A DNA stretch of 36,190 nt from Terriglobia bacterium. Its GTDB lineage: Bacteria; Acidobacteriota; Terriglobia; UBA7540. The stretch lies in assembly GCA_020073545.1 (NCBI GenBank), contig JAIQEZ010000040.1, positions 1 to 36,190 of the forward strand, written 5' to 3'. Position 1 is the stretch's first letter, and each line of letters begins with the position of its first letter. This document shows, piece by piece, positions 19,605 to 27,453 of this stretch. The position numbers and the translations under genes were made by a program. The notes below the pieces were generated by a model. It saw only the letters and a list, made by a program, of their open reading frames with translations, ran no database searches and was not told where the DNA came from.

Positions 19605-20579
19605 TTGAGTCGACCTAAGGTCTTTATTACCCGGCCGTTGCCGGCCCAGGCTGTCGAGCGTATCGCGACGCGATGCGATGTGAAGATGCATCCGGACGAC
19701 GCACCGCTCGAGCTTGCGCAACTGGCGGAAGCTTGCCGAGAGGTCGTGGGCCTGCTGGCCTCCGGCGCGCGGGTCGGCGCAGAAGTGCTGGAGCAGGCCC
19801 TGCACCTGCGCGTGATCGCCAACGTCGGCGTCGGCTACGACAACGTCGATGTGGCCGCCTGCACGCGCCGCGGCATCGTCGTTACGAACACTCCCGGGGT
19901 GGTCACGGAATCGACGGCCGACCTCGCCTTCGCGCTGCTCACGGCCGTAGCGCGCCGCCTCGTGGAAGGCGACCGCTACGTACGCGAGGGTCACTGGCGC
20001 CACTGGCAGTGGGGACTGTTATGGGGCACGGACCTCCAGGGCAAGACACTGGGGCTCTACGGTTTTGGACGCATCGGCCAAGCCCTGGCGCGTCGCGCCC
20101 GCGGATTCTCCCTACGCATCCTCTATTATTCGACCGAGCGGGCCACGCAAGCGCTGGAGGAGGAACTCGGCGCACAATTTGTGGATCGCGAGACCCTGCT
20201 GCGCGAAGCGGATTTCCTGAGCCTGCACGTCCCTCTCACACCTGCGACGCACCACCTGATCGGCGCTCGCGAGTTGGCGCTGATGAAGCCTACGGCTTAT
20301 CTCATCAACACAGCGCGCGGCAGAGTCGTAGACGAAGCCGCATTGGTCGAGGCGCTGCGCTCGAACGAGATAGCGGGCGCCGGCCTCGACGTCTTCGAGC
20401 ACGAGCCGCACATCCACCCGGCGCTCCTTGCCCTGCCCAGCGTCGTCCTGACGCCGCACGTCGGCACCGCCACTTCCGAAACTCGTCTGGCCATGGCCAT
20501 GCTGGCAGCCGAAAACCTGCTCGCCGTGCTCGACGGCCGCCGCCCGCCTAACCCCGTCAACCCGGAATTGTTCGCGTAG
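19605..20579 (+). CDS. D-isomer-specific 2-hydroxyacid dehydrogenase (glyoxylate/hydroxypyruvate reductase type)
   Basis: 324 residues from a TTG start with GGGGGGAAA seven bases upstream; the promoter position argues against the longer GTG form. The Rossmann motif LYGFGRIGQALARRA lies near residue 155. The catalytic set is visible: Arg in NTARGRVVDE, Glu in FEHEPHIHP, and His in LTPHVGTAT. NVGVGYDNVDVAACTRRGI is the typical substrate-domain segment. The family reduces glyoxylate or hydroxypyruvate to glycolate or D-glycerate with NAD(P)H. The neighbouring glycerate kinase makes D-glycerate production the natural role. Phosphoglycerate dehydrogenase is less likely because there is no ACT domain. 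Confidence 0.9.
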   Translation: MSRPKVFITRPLPAQAVERIATRCDVKMHPDDAPLELAQLAEACREVVGLLASGARVGAEVLEQALHLRVIANVGVGYDNVDVAACTRRGIVVTNTPGVVTESTADLAFALLTAVARRLVEGDRYVREGHWRHWQWGLLWGTDLQGKTLGLYGFGRIGQALARRARGFSLRILYYSTERATQALEEELGAQFVDRETLLREADFLSLHVPLTPATHHLIGARELALMKPTAYLINTARGRVVDEAALVEALRSNEIAGAGLDVFEHEPHIHPALLALPSVVLTPHVGTATSETRLAMAMLAAENLLAVLDGRRPPNPVNPELFA

Positions 20580-20586
20580 CAAGCCA

Positions 20587-20635
20587 GTCCGCGGTCCGGG
20601 GTCTGATGTCCGGAGTCCGCTGTCGGTTGTCGTGC
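20587..20635 (+). repeat. Imperfect heptamer tandem repeat (GTCCGNN type)
   Basis: Seven consecutive 7-base units each start with GTC: GTCCGCG, GTCCGGG, GTCTGAT, GTCCGGA, GTCCGCT, GTCGGTT, GTCGTGC. They begin eight bases after the dehydrogenase stop codon. Confidence 0.65.
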
Positions 20636-20704
20636 ACCTCAACTCGGCCTCAGCATCTGACCGCCGTGATCACCATCCACCCTGCGATTCTCGAGTTTCG
20701 TTTC

Positions 20705-20760
20705 CTGCCTACTGCCTTCTGCTTACTGCCTACTGACTCCCGACCCCTGACTCCGCCGAG
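20705..20760 (+). repeat. Imperfect heptamer tandem repeat (CTGCCTA type)
   Basis: CTGCCTA, CTGCCTT, CTGCTTA, CTGCCTA, CTGACTC, CCGACCC, CTGACTC and CGCCGAG follow each other with exact 7-base phase. They lie in the spacer upstream of the HbpS-like gene. Confidence 0.7.
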
Positions 20761-20857
20761 ACTCGCACAAGGCGCTCGCCTCCTGGTGCCTCTCGACTCC
20801 GGACTCCTGCCTTCCCTCCCTCTTGCGTTTCCGCGCCAGCTTCCCAATAATGGAGGT

Positions 20858-21286
20858 ATGCTGACACGAAACAACATTCGTCTGACGCTCGAAGGCGCGC
20901 GTGCCATCCTGTCCGCGGCAGAAGCGAAGGCACGCGAAATCAAAGTTCCGCAAAACATCGCTGTGGTGGATGAAGCTGGCTACCTGCTGGCGTTTGCGCG
21001 CATGGACGGCGCCAAGCTCATCGCGGTGGAAGTGGCGCTTACCAAAGCCCGAGCCTCGGCACTTGGCCGTGTTGCCACGGGTCCTTCGCCGGCGCGAGAG
21101 CCGGACGTGATGCTTACCCTCGGCCTTTCCCTGGCCACCCATGGCACGCTCACCTGCATCCGCGGCGGGCTGCCACTTATCGTGAATGGCCAATGCGTGG
21201 GTGGCATCGGAGTGAGTTCCGGCACGCAGGACGAAGACGTTCTGGTGGCTCAGGCAGGTGCGGACGCGTTCCAGAAGTTCTCCTGA
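20858..21286 (+). CDS. HbpS/GlcG-like (DUF336) protein
   Basis: 142 residues with the family features: LTLEGARAILSAAEAKAREI, VPQNIAVVDEAGYLLAFARMDGAKL, ALTKARASAL, and a Gly-rich end GGLPLIVNGQCVGGIGVSSG. GlcG/HbpS-type proteins accompany glycolate, glycerol or diol catabolism and some bind haem or cobalamin; their exact role is unclear. The TGA overlaps the next gene's ATG by one base, so it is translationally coupled to the glycerate kinase. GGAGG lies only one base before the ATG, which is unusually close. A five-codon frame (ATG at 20849) overlaps the start and could affect initiation. Confidence 0.85.
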   Translation: MLTRNNIRLTLEGARAILSAAEAKAREIKVPQNIAVVDEAGYLLAFARMDGAKLIAVEVALTKARASALGRVATGPSPAREPDVMLTLGLSLATHGTLTCIRGGLPLIVNGQCVGGIGVSSGTQDEDVLVAQAGADAFQKFS

Positions 21287-22641
21287 TGGACACTTCGATA
21301 CAATCCGCAGCCCTTACGAACCTGGCCTATGCCCACGGCAAGCAACTGGCCCAACAGATTTTCCTCGAGACCATGGCGGCCATCGAGGTGCGCCATGCCA
21401 TGCTCGCGAAGTTGATATCCGAGGGCGGTGCTCTGGTGGCGGGAGGAGTTTCACATCCGCTGATCCGGCCGCCGCGCGTGGTGGCGTTCGGCAAAGCCGC
21501 CAACCGCATGGCTGCCGCGCTGGACGAAATCCTGGGCGGTCGCATCGAAGCGGGTATAGCGGTGGCGCCGGCAGAGCCCCCGAGAAAACTCGCGCGCTTC
21601 CACTATTTCCTCGGCGGTCATCCCTACCCCACGGCCGGCAGTCTGGAAGGCGCGCAGGCCGCACTGGAACTCGTTTCCAACCTGTCGCGCGACGACTCGG
21701 TTATCTTCCTCGTTTCCGGAGGAGGCTCCGCCACGCTGGCGCAACCCATTGATGCGAGCATCACCCTCGCCGACCTGATCGAGTTTAACCGCGTGCTGGT
21801 CACCTCCAGGCTGCCCATCGAGAAGATCAACGTGCTGCGCAAGCACCTCTCGGCTGTAAAGGGCGGAAGGCTCGGCGTGCGCGCGTACCCCGCACAACAG
21901 CTTACGATTTTCATTTCCGACGTACCAGACCACCTGCCCTCGATGGTCGCCTCCGGCCCGACCATGCCCGATGAGTCCACGGCCGAGCAGGCATACGAAC
22001 TGACGGAACGCCACGGCCTGGTCCGCCTGTTCCCCGCGAGTATCCGGAGATTCTTCGAGCTTCGGAAACTACCGGAGACTCCCAAACCGGGCGACGCGCG
22101 GTTTGCGAATGCGCATTACTTCTGCCTGCTTTCGAACCACGACGCGGTAGAGGCTGCCCTGACGGCGGCGGAAAAACTCGGGTTCGCCAGTGCGATCGAC
22201 CCCGGACCATGGGACGCCGACTACCAGCAGGTGGCGCACGCGAACCTGGCCGCGCTCGAGGCGCTCTCCAAGAAACACCAAGGCCAGCCCGTCTGTCTCG
22301 TGGTCGGCGGAGAAGTCACGTGCCCGGTCACCGGCCCCGGCGTGGGTGGGCGTAACCAGGCTTTCGTACTCTACGCGGCGCAGCAGATCACGGGACGGCA
22401 CCGCGTCGTCCTGAGCGCCGGCACCGACGGCCGCGACGGCAACAGTCCCACCAGCGGCGCAGTCGCCGACGGCCAGACCATTTCGCGCACTCAGGCCCGA
22501 GGTCCGGATCCCGCCGCCCACCTCGCGGAAAGCGATTCCTATTCGTTCTTCCGCACCTTGGGCGACACGCTCGACACCGGATTCACGGATAACAACGTTC
22601 GCGACGTGCGCATCTGGCTCGACTTCGGGGCGGCAAAGTGA
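21286..22641 (+). CDS. Glycerate 2-kinase (GckA/TtuD type, DUF4147 plus MOFRL)
   Basis: 451 residues from the ATG at 21286, which overlaps the preceding stop (TGATG). The N-terminal DUF4147 domain has VVAFGKAANRMAAALDEIL, VSGGGSATLAQP and NVLRKHLSAVKGGRL. The C-terminal MOFRL domain has CLVVGGEVTCPVTGPGVGG, RNQAFVLYAAQQI and LSAGTDGRDGNSPTSGAVAD. The enzyme transfers phosphate from ATP to D-glycerate, giving 2-phosphoglycerate for lower glycolysis. Coupling with the GlcG-like gene and closeness to two glyoxylate/hydroxypyruvate-type reductases strongly support this substrate. Confidence 0.93.
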   Translation: MDTSIQSAALTNLAYAHGKQLAQQIFLETMAAIEVRHAMLAKLISEGGALVAGGVSHPLIRPPRVVAFGKAANRMAAALDEILGGRIEAGIAVAPAEPPRKLARFHYFLGGHPYPTAGSLEGAQAALELVSNLSRDDSVIFLVSGGGSATLAQPIDASITLADLIEFNRVLVTSRLPIEKINVLRKHLSAVKGGRLGVRAYPAQQLTIFISDVPDHLPSMVASGPTMPDESTAEQAYELTERHGLVRLFPASIRRFFELRKLPETPKPGDARFANAHYFCLLSNHDAVEAALTAAEKLGFASAIDPGPWDADYQQVAHANLAALEALSKKHQGQPVCLVVGGEVTCPVTGPGVGGRNQAFVLYAAQQITGRHRVVLSAGTDGRDGNSPTSGAVADGQTISRTQARGPDPAAHLAESDSYSFFRTLGDTLDTGFTDNNVRDVRIWLDFGAAK

Positions 22642-22682
22642 CGTAGCGCCGACCACGGGGTCCGCACCTTGGTTCCATCGCC

Positions 22683-23414
22683 ATGGACGATCTGACAGGG
22701 AAAGTTGCTCTGGTGACGGGCGCGAGTCTGGGCATCGGCCGGGCCATCGCCCAAGCCTTAGGCAAGGCCGGCGCAGAGGTGGCGGTCAATTACCTTCGGC
22801 ATGAGGCGGAAGCCGAAGAGGTGTGCGAGTTCATCCGGCGCTTGGGACGGCGCGCGCTCGCCGTGCAGGCGGATGTTTCAAAATCCTCGGAAGTCACGCG
22901 CCTGGTAAAAACGGTTGAGCAGGGGTTGGGGTCAATCGAAATCCTGGTCAACAATTCCGGCATCACGCGCCCGCAGCCGCTGGAGGATATTCGGGAAGAA
23001 GACTGGGATGAACTCATCAATGTGAATCTCAAATCCGCCTTCCTGGTCACGCAGCGGGTTCTGCCGGGAATGCGCGCGCGCCACTGGGGGCGCATCATCA
23101 ATATCTCCTCGGTGGCCGCCCACACAGGCGGAGTGGTGGGGCCGCACTACGCCGCATCCAAGGCGGGCATGCTCGGGTTGACGCATTCCTATGCCGGGCT
23201 TCTGGCGCGCGAGGGTGTTACCGTGAATGCCATCGCGCCCGCGCTGATCTACACCCAGATGGTGGCGGCGAACCCCCGCGCGCGTGCGGACCTGATCCCG
23301 GTGGGGCGCTTCGGCAAAGTCGAGGAAGTCGCGGACGCGGCCCTCCTGCTGGCGGGCAACGGTTATATCACCGGCCAGACCCTCAACGTGGACGGCGGCT
23401 GGTACATGACGTAG
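22683..23414 (+). CDS. Short-chain dehydrogenase/reductase (FabG-like)
   Basis: 243 residues of classical SDR. The nucleotide motif TGASLGIG is at 13-20, then NNSG (for NNAG), the catalytic Ser in INISSVAAHTGG, and YAASK supplying Tyr and Lys. The C-terminal DGGWYMT is typical. An Arg and Asn lie after the second strand (NYLRHEAE), which suggests NADP preference. FabG-like enzymes range from 3-oxoacyl-ACP reductase to sugar dehydrogenases. Here, away from fatty-acid genes and inside a catabolic cluster, a sugar or hydroxyacid dehydrogenase is more likely. It starts 41 bases after the kinase, with only a weak upstream site, so co-transcription is expected. Confidence 0.88.
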   Translation: MDDLTGKVALVTGASLGIGRAIAQALGKAGAEVAVNYLRHEAEAEEVCEFIRRLGRRALAVQADVSKSSEVTRLVKTVEQGLGSIEILVNNSGITRPQPLEDIREEDWDELINVNLKSAFLVTQRVLPGMRARHWGRIINISSVAAHTGGVVGPHYAASKAGMLGLTHSYAGLLAREGVTVNAIAPALIYTQMVAANPRARADLIPVGRFGKVEEVADAALLLAGNGYITGQTLNVDGGWYMT

Positions 23415-23416
23415 GG

Positions 23417-23451
23417 CTGTCAGCTGTCAGCGATCAGCTTTCAGCTGAAGC
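23417..23451 (+). repeat. Imperfect heptamer tandem repeat (CTGTCAG type)
   Basis: CTGTCAG, CTGTCAG, CGATCAG, CTTTCAG and CTGAAGC in exact 7-base phase, immediately after the SDR stop codon. This is the third heptamer array in the cluster spacers. Confidence 0.65.
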
Positions 23452-23496
23452 ATGAGCGGACAGCTGAGCGCTGGTCGCTTTTCCAGGAGGAAATTG

Positions 23497-24387
23497 ATGC
23501 CGGAATCCATCGGATTCATCGGACTCGGAATTATGGGGCAGCCCATGGCGCTGAACCTCATCAAAGCGGGTCACCAGCTGGCGGTCTACAATCGCACCGC
23601 CGCGAAGGCCGCCGCACTCCAGGCGGCTGGCGCCCGCGTGGTCTCTTCGCCTGCCGACGCCGCGCGCGATGCCAACGTCGTGATGATGATCGTGAGCGAC
23701 TCCGCCGCGGTGGAAGAAGTGGTGGCAGGCAAGGGTGGAATTCTCGAATCGCTCCGCGCCGGCGCGCTAGTGATCGACTCGAGCACCATCAGCCCCACCG
23801 TCAGCCGCAAGATGGCCTGCCTGGTAGCAGGCAAAGGTGCAAGCTGGCTCGACGCGCCCGTCACCGGCTCGAAGCATGGCGCCGAAAAGGGCGAGCTGAC
23901 GTTTATGATGGGCGGCGATCGCGCCGCCTTCGACCGTGCCCTGCCCATCCTGCAGGTGCTCGGCAAAAAGCATATCTACTGCGGCTCGCACGGGCTCGGC
24001 CTCTCGGCCAAGCTCGCGCAGAACACCATCCAGGCTACCCTGCTCGAGGTTTTCTGCGAAGGCTTCGTGCTCGCGACCAAGGCGGGTGTGCGGCCCGAAA
24101 CCATGCTGGAAATCATCCAGTCCAGCCTGGCGCGCGCCGCGCTCACCGACTTCAAGGCGCCGTTCATTTTCAAGGGTGACTTCACCCCCTACTTCCCGCT
24201 CAAGCTCATGCACAAAGACCTGGAATTGGCCGCCGAAGCCGGTTACGCGCAGGGCGTCCCTATGCCCGCGCTCGCAGCCGTGAAAGAGGTTTACATGGCC
24301 GCCAAAGCTCAGGGAAAAGGCGACTTGGATTACGCCGCGATCGTCACTTTTCTGGAGGAGCTGGCGGGCGTGAAGGTGCGAACCTAG
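23497..24387 (+). CDS. Beta-hydroxyacid dehydrogenase, glyoxylate/succinic semialdehyde reductase-like (GLYR/GlxR/HIBADH family)
   Basis: 296 residues from an ATG with CAGGAGG six bases upstream. The N-terminal motif GFIGLGIMGQPMALNLIKAGH and NRT after the second strand point to NADP. The substrate motif DAPVTGSKHGAEKGELTFM resembles the APVSGSK form of plant and bacterial glyoxylate/succinic-semialdehyde reductases more than the GG form of hydroxyisobutyrate dehydrogenases. The catalytic Lys lies in LSAKLAQNTIQA, and the C-terminal helices include FPLKLMHKDLELA. A role in reducing glyoxylate or tartronate semialdehyde fits the neighbouring glycerate kinase. 3-hydroxyisobutyrate dehydrogenase remains possible. 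Confidence 0.88.
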   Translation: MPESIGFIGLGIMGQPMALNLIKAGHQLAVYNRTAAKAAALQAAGARVVSSPADAARDANVVMMIVSDSAAVEEVVAGKGGILESLRAGALVIDSSTISPTVSRKMACLVAGKGASWLDAPVTGSKHGAEKGELTFMMGGDRAAFDRALPILQVLGKKHIYCGSHGLGLSAKLAQNTIQATLLEVFCEGFVLATKAGVRPETMLEIIQSSLARAALTDFKAPFIFKGDFTPYFPLKLMHKDLELAAEAGYAQGVPMPALAAVKEVYMAAKAQGKGDLDYAAIVTFLEELAGVKVRT

Positions 24388-26952: not shown

Positions 26953-27453
26953 TCAATTCAGCTTGGCGGTCCACTTGCCTCTGTCCCAGGTCAAGTAGTT
27001 CATGATCGTATCGGGATGAGCTTTCGACCAGTCGCCATTCGGCGCATGCAGAAACCCGTTCCCCTGCAACTTCGCGGTCCACTTACCTCCGTCCCAGGTC
27101 AGATAGTTGAGGATGGTATCCGCATGGGCTTGTGACCAGTCGCCATTCGGCGCATGCAGGAACCCGTTCCCCTGCAACTTGGCGGTCCACTTACCTCCGT
27201 CCCAGGTCAGATAGTTGAGGATGGTGTCCCCATGGGCTTGTGACCAGTCACCATTCGGCGCGTGGAGGAACCCGCTTCCTTGCAGCTTGGCTGTCCCCTG
27301 GGCGCCGTTCAGGGTCAAGTAACTGACGATAGATTTGGAATGGCCACTCGCCCCGTCTGAAACTCGACCTGCTCGGGGAGCCTGGCCCGTCATAAGCAGG
27401 ATGATCGCTGCTCCAACCAGAATGAGGTACACCGCCCGGATGAAGAGTTTCAT
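26953..27453 (-). CDS. Exported protein made of 36-residue tandem repeats
   Basis: 166 residues from an ATG with AAGGAG about seven bases upstream. A signal segment (IRAVYLILVGAAIILLMTG) precedes a Gly/Ser spacer. Then come a degenerate unit, two nearly identical 36-residue units and a final half unit, each with the core ILNYLTWDGGKWTAKL and GFLHAPNGDWSQAH. The DNA repeats are 108 bases apart (26966, 27074, 27182). Two Trp, one Tyr and the HAPNGDW turn per unit suggest a repetitive beta fold, exported and perhaps binding a ligand. I know no named family and cannot assign a function. High nucleotide identity between units implies recent duplication. Confidence 0.75.
   Translation of the reverse strand: MKLFIRAVYLILVGAAIILLMTGQAPRAGRVSDGASGHSKSIVSYLTLNGAQGTAKLQGSGFLHAPNGDWSQAHGDTILNYLTWDGGKWTAKLQGNGFLHAPNGDWSQAHADTILNYLTWDGGKWTAKLQGNGFLHAPNGDWSKAHPDTIMNYLTWDRGKWTAKLN

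Follow-up and report, generated by a model that had tools for sequence, protein, structure and literature searches.

Intergenic tandem heptamers are a familiar feature of filamentous cyanobacteria such as Calothrix, where they are known as short tandemly repeated repetitive (STRR) sequences. Here, we analyzed arrays of 7-nucleotide (nt) units in a stretch of DNA, the window (the whole 36,190 nt at positions 1-36,190 of contig JAIQEZ010000040.1 of a Terriglobia bacterium, whose draft genome GCA_020073545.1 comprises 261 contigs with 5.28 Mb altogether), together with the dispersed repeat system to which they probably belong and in which facing heptamer arrays frame genes for S23/IVP proteins. 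There are several descriptions of bacterial heptamer repeats and no accepted cause, and the link between repeat word and protein reported below joins these repeats to the S23/IVP proteins.

Degenerate and mostly intergenic heptamer arrays, most commonly of four units, occur in Xanthomonas (GGGAATC) and Nostoc (GGGGA(C/T)T), and for two Xanthomonas 70 and 75 convergent pairs were counted, in which the word lies on the sense strand after stop codons and on the antisense strand before start codons (Rehm 2015, PMC4692102). The TAACTGA repeats of Beggiatoaceae, Cyanobacteria, and Bacteroidetes are direct repeats close upstream of start codons (MacGregor 2015, PMC4679880). S23/IVP proteins are described as being without known function, and an S23 element of Coxiella, which RNase III cuts, carries GACAGAT heptamers in strain-variable number 5' of its reading frame (PMC4990558). 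Apart from this one Coxiella reading frame (PMC4990558), no general link between S23 genes and heptamers was found in the literature searched.

The S23/IVP proteins came into view with one pair of facing arrays (locus L009, 2735-3218), whose 378-nt loop contains a reading frame that we read as an S23/IVP protein; a PF05635 search then matched it. Matches to PF05635 were present in 50 of 61 genomes and in none of 14 control genomes. For the analysis of flanks, 112 S23 loci were entered (L296, L303, and L304, which were under the cut-off, and the duplicates L365-L373 and L382 had been excluded beforehand), which gave 105 usable genes from 37 genomes, drawn mostly from the top-scoring matches and not randomly (L300 and L380 could not be located, one locus was a duplicate, and four had a short flank or reading frame). 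Heptamer arrays stood on both sides of 85 of these genes, 82 had the same word in inverted orientation on the two sides, and in none was the direct match as good as or better than the inverted one. Among 205 control genes matched in size (300-600 nt), the corresponding numbers of genes with arrays on both sides and with inverted same-word arrays were 4 and 1. The median distance was 30.5 nt from the left array to the start codon and 9.5 nt from the stop codon to the right array, and among 166 arms, lengths of four units (44 arms) and five units (45 arms) were the most common. Outside the relatives, 7 of 10 usable S23 genes were framed (other Acidobacteriota, Phycisphaerae, Methylomirabilota, and Zipacnadia). 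The association of S23 genes with arrays and the link between word and protein described next are observations that we regard as almost certain. The sole framed control gene (L178, 13559-13891) resembles the four-helix-bundle family distantly (E 5e-5), so divergent members may be framed too.

When the period was left free between 4 and 12, in a fit that did not demand inversion, 7 was best in 100 of 123 genes, 8 in seven, 9 in two, and 10 and 6 in one each, while 12 genes fitted no period. Framing at period 8 was seen at L286, L283, L323, L315, L389, L393, and L398, at period 9 at L266 and L347, and at period 10 at L355; the period of the arrays may belong to the S23 protein lineage.

Which word an element carries goes with the lineage of its S23 protein, in different genera and sometimes in different phyla. 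With word similarity expressed as a simple profile score (cut-offs of 3.3 and 4.0 set by us), two elements out of 83 had a word in common in 58 of 62 pairs with a protein identity of at least 0.65 and in 148 of 2,771 pairs below 0.45. As many S23 elements are orthologous by context, 75 flank-homologous pairs were removed by a filter that may let some orthologues through, after which the word was shared in 39 of 42 pairs at 65% identity or more, in 42 of 56 at 0.60-0.65, and in 148 of 2,737 below 45% (Mantel p 0.002). One of the three exceptions at 65% or more (L328/L311) has the same word with reversed polarity. The Methylomirabilota gene L291 shares its TCAG-type word with Terriglobia genes at 0.66-0.70 identity. 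The residues of the L305 protein that track the word best are C54, G55, F62, R64, S74, E103, and K105, which are possible specificity determinants; C54 and G55 lie at or beside the loop that joins helices 2 and 3 in a structure model, which is a lead and not a test.

A prediction of framing was written down before the S23 loci of named plasmids were read, and 18 of the 26 records were then read (16 from cyanobacteria, one from Azospirillum, and one from Gemmatirosa). Heptamer arrays were present on both sides of 15 of the 18 plasmid genes, and in 14 they were inverted same-word arrays; L399 failed, L389, L393, and L398 have 8-nt arrays, and L390 and L396 are near copies of one locus. For the two plasmid genes most similar to the TCAG type, the prediction was TCAGYNN and the word observed was TTAGCNN, which differs in one core letter; the remaining twelve inverted plasmid elements have words of other kinds, in line with the prediction. 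Four genes of cyanobacteria that are 64-67% identical to Terriglobia genes of the AGTCAGA type have an AGTCAGA-like word, with three of the four scoring at least 4.0 with one of their two nearest genes, and for more distant plasmid genes the word of the nearest gene was often mismatched. Facing arrays thus frame S23 genes on plasmids of Nostoc, Calothrix, Anabaena, Trichormus, and other cyanobacteria, which bears out the likeness to the heptamers of filamentous cyanobacteria that an earlier note on the window had pointed out. Three of the plasmid S23 genes (L384, L386, and L393) lie amid CRISPR genes, twice with cas6/cas4 and once with cas10/cmr3.

In the window itself, that note had placed three arrays in strict 7-nt phase, all of which were recovered (20585-20632; 20685-20754, with a core at 20705-20735; and 23416-23446). 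In a self-match scan of the window over lags 2-30, 35-nt stretches with at least 24 self-matches occurred solely at lags 7 and 14. A sample of 472,617 bases of the same genome (about a tenth of it, selected independently of repeats) had 16 self-match places of 35 nt at lag 7, five at lag 14, and two each at lags 8 and 21 over the same range of lags, whereas a Markov surrogate of the sample had no such place at lag 7. A log-odds segment score (cut 10) gave 48 segments at lag 7 versus 2-8 at lags 4, 5, 8, 10, 11, 13, 16, and 17, and the counts at lags 14 (26) and 21 (31) are harmonics of lag 7. In this tenth of the genome, the lag-7 signal, whose absence would have refuted the earlier note, is therefore well above the surrogate and the other lags, and the note is not refuted. 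The arrays of the window and their neighboring genes are as follows.

19680..20579, plus strand: neighboring D-2-hydroxyacid dehydrogenase gene (PF02826/PF00389).
20585..20632, plus strand: left arm of element 1, GTCCGNN-like units, beginning 6 nt past the dehydrogenase stop; its top word among the S23 elements of the same genome is that of L309 (AGTCCGA, 4.39).
20685..20754, plus strand: right arm of element 1, part 1, CTGCCTA-like units grading into CTGACTCC-like units, the complement of a TAGGCAG / AGTCAGG-like word.
20795..20815, plus strand: right arm of element 1, part 2, a short GACTCCGGACTCCTGCC stretch read from the sequence, with an inverted-type match to the left arm.
20858..21286, plus strand: neighboring HbpS-like gene (PF03928).
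22683..23414, plus strand: neighboring short-chain dehydrogenase gene (PF00106).
23416..23446, plus strand: left arm of element 2, a TCAGCNN array beginning directly past the short-chain dehydrogenase stop; its top word among the S23 elements of the same genome is that of L305 (TCAGCNN, 4.96).
23460..23480, plus strand: right arm of element 2, a decayed GCTGAGCGCTGG-like stretch in inverted orientation relative to the left arm, ending just upstream of the ribosome-binding site of the next gene.
23497..24387, plus strand: beta-hydroxyacid dehydrogenase gene (PF03446/PF14833), the reductase gene whose upstream spacer was compared across genomes.

The three arrays look like parts of two paired elements, a pairing that the earlier note had missed. 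Element 2 is a clear TCAGC pair, with an arm similarity of 3.73 inverted versus 3.08 direct and a spacer fold at z -4.4 against shuffles. Element 1 is composite and the weaker case: its left array matches the distal part of the 20685-20754 array (3.66 inverted, 2.55 direct) and the stretch at about 20795-20815 (3.53 inverted, 2.60 direct) but the whole 20685-20754 array at only 3.14, its spacer fold is no better than that of shuffles (z -0.2), and its first pair falls under the pair cut-off of the polarity analysis described below. For part 1 of its right arm, the top word within the genome is that of L311 (GGCAGAA, 4.01), and the top word overall is that of L356 from another genome (4.34). 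In both elements, the TCAG or purine/G-rich strand faces inward. The genome has 19 PF05635 matches (two being second pieces of a gene), and none lies on the contig of the window; the two pairs are therefore gene-less. The closest named relatives of the reductase are Acidobacteriota of the Terriglobia, some of them called subdivision 13. At 26962-27296, the window also contains a 108-nt tandem repeat (3.1 copies, 88% alike) that lies in a reading frame of the minus strand matching DUF4751.

Facing inverted pairs recur well beyond the window. Among 36 adjacent arrays no more than 300 nt apart in the sample from the same genome, which here includes the window and four stretches picked for a repeat, 18 were inverted same-word and none direct, compared to 5% and 4% for random arrays of the genome. 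Of 15 adjacent arrays in the relative G059, eight were inverted same-word and one was direct (random 14% and 11%), and the gp13 loci had seven and none among ten. The word is common to both arms of one pair and differs among pairs. Polarity measured over 37 pairs by purine content or G minus C was not significant (20 of 37 and 23 of 37) because TCAG words are balanced. With a split chosen after this null result, using the motif for TCAG words and purines for the rest, all 28 TCAG-type pairs had TCAG in the left arm and CTGA in the right, and the left arm was richer in purines in 19 of 21 remaining pairs. As L095 and L174 are one locus, which supplied one pair to each group, and as one pair per group shares its right arm with another, we also counted without these four pairs and obtained 26 of 26 and 17 of 19. 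The same inward polarity was seen in gene-bearing elements, in 23 of 23 of the TCAG type and in 53 of 59 others. The gene-bearing element L328 has TTCTGCC left and GGCAGAA right, the reverse of the usual polarity, which its 79% identical relative L311 shows. The letter following TCAG agrees between arms (0.90 vs 0.52, p 0.0005), and the two variable letters barely do so (0.131 vs 0.092, p 0.03).

The arrangement and position of the pairs could suggest intergenic RNA hairpins that selection maintains for the termination or processing of transcripts, independently of S23 proteins. With gene borders taken from a purpose-made simple gene caller, 75 of 87 arrays in the sample from the same genome were intergenic, where non-coding DNA makes up 22%, and arrays in spacers of at least 60 nt lay at a median of 6 nt from the nearer gene border, as expected for such hairpins. 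In addition, 47 of 48 folded pairs had z < -2 against mononucleotide shuffles, and a median of 67% of the left arm paired with the right arm. Good folding is, however, expected because the pairs were selected for inverted similarity, and register-specific pairing was absent in 37 pairs and, with a control in which decayed edge units keep their outer position, in 43. An ungapped register test was null (1 of 37 pairs with p < 0.05), and the idea of arms as mirrored copies or covarying stems was rejected. Folding against unit shuffles had seemed positive (45 elements, p 0.002 and 7e-5) and was lost with the edge-keeping control (43 elements, p 0.83 and 0.12); the identical loci L084, L174, and L177 were excluded from these two tests against unit shuffles and from the comparison of conserved gene pairs given below. 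Words also vary at orthologous spacers and yet track the S23 protein where it is present, so we consider hairpins selected without regard to S23 proteins unlikely. At about ten sites of G000 (e.g., L010 5531-5548 and L021 17076-17093), short-loop TCAGC pairs share a near-palindromic TAAWGCWTTA-like loop. Genome-wide, with up to two mismatches, this pattern had fewer matches than its reversed control (17+16 vs 32+33). Whole-element copying was set aside, as most loops are unrelated and the shared-loop subset found no support in this count.

Orthologous spacers show how the words change. The spacer upstream of the reductase gene was compared across 20 loci, including the window, and facing arrays were seen by eye in six, with the words TCAGC (L053 and L054), AGTCAGA (L060), GGTAAAG (L061), GTTGAAA (L068), and TCGAAAG (L071); other spacers were without arrays, and two were just 16-18 nt long. 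In 426 conserved gene pairs of the fetched loci, with spacers reused between comparisons, both genomes had arrays for 21 pairs and one of the two for 131. At four S23 loci (L273/L009, L334/L010, L354/L021, and L356/L172), the matching spacer in another genus has a gene-less pair, mostly with another word. Words therefore turn over per locus, while the period and the facing layout recur.

A rival reading is replication slippage alone, in which any heptamer grows because 7 nt suits the polymerase, and words are arbitrary; a similar proposal is credited to Mrazek in PMC4679880. The predominance of period 7, the scrambled order of units between arms, and the nearly free variable letters all agree with slippage. 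It does not predict inverted same-word pairing, inward polarity, the framing of one gene family, or the link between word and protein, and thus it is insufficient alone. At L315, moreover, TCAGT recurs at period 8 in both arms at a site where relatives have TCAGTNN at period 7, which fits a remaking of arrays better than slow slippage. As the sole cause, slippage is already contradicted, and we consider it quite unlikely. The earlier note had argued from the shared period to a shared generating mechanism, such as slippage or a 7-base-step process, rather than descent from one element. One mechanism behind different words of one period still holds, while slippage or a bare 7-base step does not suffice as its whole cause; likewise, the words are indeed not one lineage, and yet they follow protein lineages.

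Counts per genome bear on which protein is involved. Over the 61 genomes, the number of TCAGC arrays correlated with PF05635 matches at a Spearman coefficient of 0.75 (partial t 6.0), with Y1_Tnp matches at 0.51 (partial t 2.0), and with RVT_1 matches at 0.05. Of the 11 genomes without PF05635, ten had no TCAGC array and one had two. Of the 20 genomes with a TCAG-type protein, a class whose cut-off was fixed after the protein scores had been seen, 19 had at least three TCAGC arrays, compared to 12 of the 41 others. In G070 (Acidobacteria PL23a_bin.88), the reversed control pattern was also abundant (80 and 86 matches), perhaps because of a second, AGTCAAC-type word. A Y1 (REP-type, i.e., repetitive extragenic palindromic) transposase that moves the arrays, with S23 genes as passengers, would act in a mode already known from REPINs (PMC3116915) and would explain the Y1 correlation. 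As the S23 counts correlate better, the word tracks the S23 protein, and the S23-rich genomes G023 and G027 have just 1 and 2 Y1 matches, this is very unlikely. A reverse transcriptase as the driver was rejected on the RVT_1 coefficient and on G010, G018, and G027, which have 17, 17, and 23 PF05635 matches and no RVT_1 match. Mere insertion of S23 genes into spacers already holding arrays would suit orthologous spacers that are gene-bearing in one genus and gene-less, mostly with another word, in the next, but it would leave the framing word independent of the protein, on which the word does depend, also at unrelated sites and in some cyanobacterial genes, and it is most improbable.

The explanation that we favor, and consider somewhat more probable than its negation, is that a dispersed repeat system, some members of which carry an S23 gene, is represented in the window by two members without a gene, whose arms are the window arrays. 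Most likely, the S23 protein would recognize its own heptad word in DNA or RNA and, together with host enzymes, would direct how array pairs are made, spread, or maintained at intergenic sites. It would also act in trans on gene-less pairs, much as RAYTs are thought to act on REPINs. In transcripts, the arms could pair into an imperfect hairpin, by which an intergenic element would be tolerated; 23S rRNA intervening sequences are tolerated because RNase III cuts their stem.

Several points weigh against this explanation. Twenty-three of the 105 S23 genes failed the framing test, nine of them without a heptamer array on either side, and some of these nine have periods 8-10. The 12 genomes that have at least three TCAGC arrays without a TCAG-type protein, and the correlation of Y1 counts with these arrays, also need to be accounted for, and genome-level p values are too small because the genomes are related drafts. 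The loops of 34 gene-less pairs gave no convincing S23 remnant (two weak 16-residue matches, E 0.04), and gene-less loops mostly have unrelated sequence, so the gene-less pairs are not simply decayed or copied elements, and their origin as decayed gene-bearing copies was dropped. The order of units differs between arms, without mirroring. The gene-less arrays of the genome favor its own S23 words over foreign ones only weakly (59 of 85 vs 48 expected; mean test p 0.07). Finally, the binding and movement of arrays by the S23 protein are what we infer and not what we observed.

The S23 family (PF05635, TIGR02436) is a four-helix bundle. Its solved relatives 2gsc and 2rld were deposited with five chains each, and 2gsc is described as a toroidal homopentamer (PMC4990558). 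Fold matches were XCC0516 and BT_0352 first, followed by Avd of diversity-generating retroelements (4dwl, E 0.03; 8ub7, E 0.04), to which the family is structurally related (PMC10053308); three S23 proteins scored 20-30 bits with the Avd model, i.e., below its cut-off of 80. As a tentative extension that we think rather doubtful, S23/IVP pentamers might be sequence-specific readers of heptad arrays, perhaps with one heptad per subunit, that drive a transposase-free intragenomic replicator. One system might then have produced the heptamers of filamentous cyanobacteria, the TAACTGA repeats of Beggiatoaceae, the GGGAATC repeats of Xanthomonas, and the 23S rRNA intervening sequences, and its protein-to-word code would be readable in the sequences. 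If our explanation is true, the S23 system would be the second of the REPIN type, with a relative of Avd, the diversity-generating retroelement subunit, at its core, and protein sequence could allow repeat words to be predicted across phyla.

By description, the elements resemble the cyanobacterial STRR sequences in being intergenic heptamers, and cyanobacterial S23 genes carry facing heptamer arrays. With the Xanthomonas and Nostoc repeats they share degenerate, mostly intergenic heptamer arrays in convergent pairs. In the accessible part of that study, those repeats have one word per study, are read as G-quadruplexes, come in few pairs in Nostoc, and are given no S23 link (PMC4692102), whereas the present genome has many words, mostly not G-tracts; the Xanthomonas word GGGAATC / GGGANTN is not among the window words (GTCCGNN, CTGCCTA, and TCAGCNN). 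Read on the other strand, TAACTGA becomes TCAGTTA and hence a TCAGTNN unit, and right arms here likewise lie near start codons, but the TAACTGA repeats are described as direct, and an S23 link is absent from the accessible text (PMC4679880). TAACTGA is not a window word, TCAGCNN differs from TCAGTTA by one core letter, and the TCAGYNN pattern had no match in two Thiomargarita metagenome-assembled genomes. The 23S rRNA intervening sequence of Coxiella likewise has an S23 reading frame between complementary ends, with heptamers 5' of the frame. It lies inside 23S rRNA (PMC4990558), while the elements here, including those of the window, lie in spacers between protein genes, and many have no reading frame. 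The REPIN/RAYT system (Bertels and Rainey 2011, PMC3116915) is similar in that dispersed, hairpin-capable inverted doublets, a feature present here in pairs that were preselected for it, stand in some cases beside a gene for a protein of the matching lineage and mostly without one. It differs in that the protein here is a four-helix bundle without known catalysis and not a Y1 transposase, and in that the arms are tandem arrays with turnover and not conserved palindromes; a conserved unit across copies is absent, as words differ per pair and loops are mostly unrelated, save for the short-loop TCAGC subset. By analogy, the S23 system may operate in the manner of REPIN/RAYT, though its protein is unrelated to RAYT and has no known catalysis.

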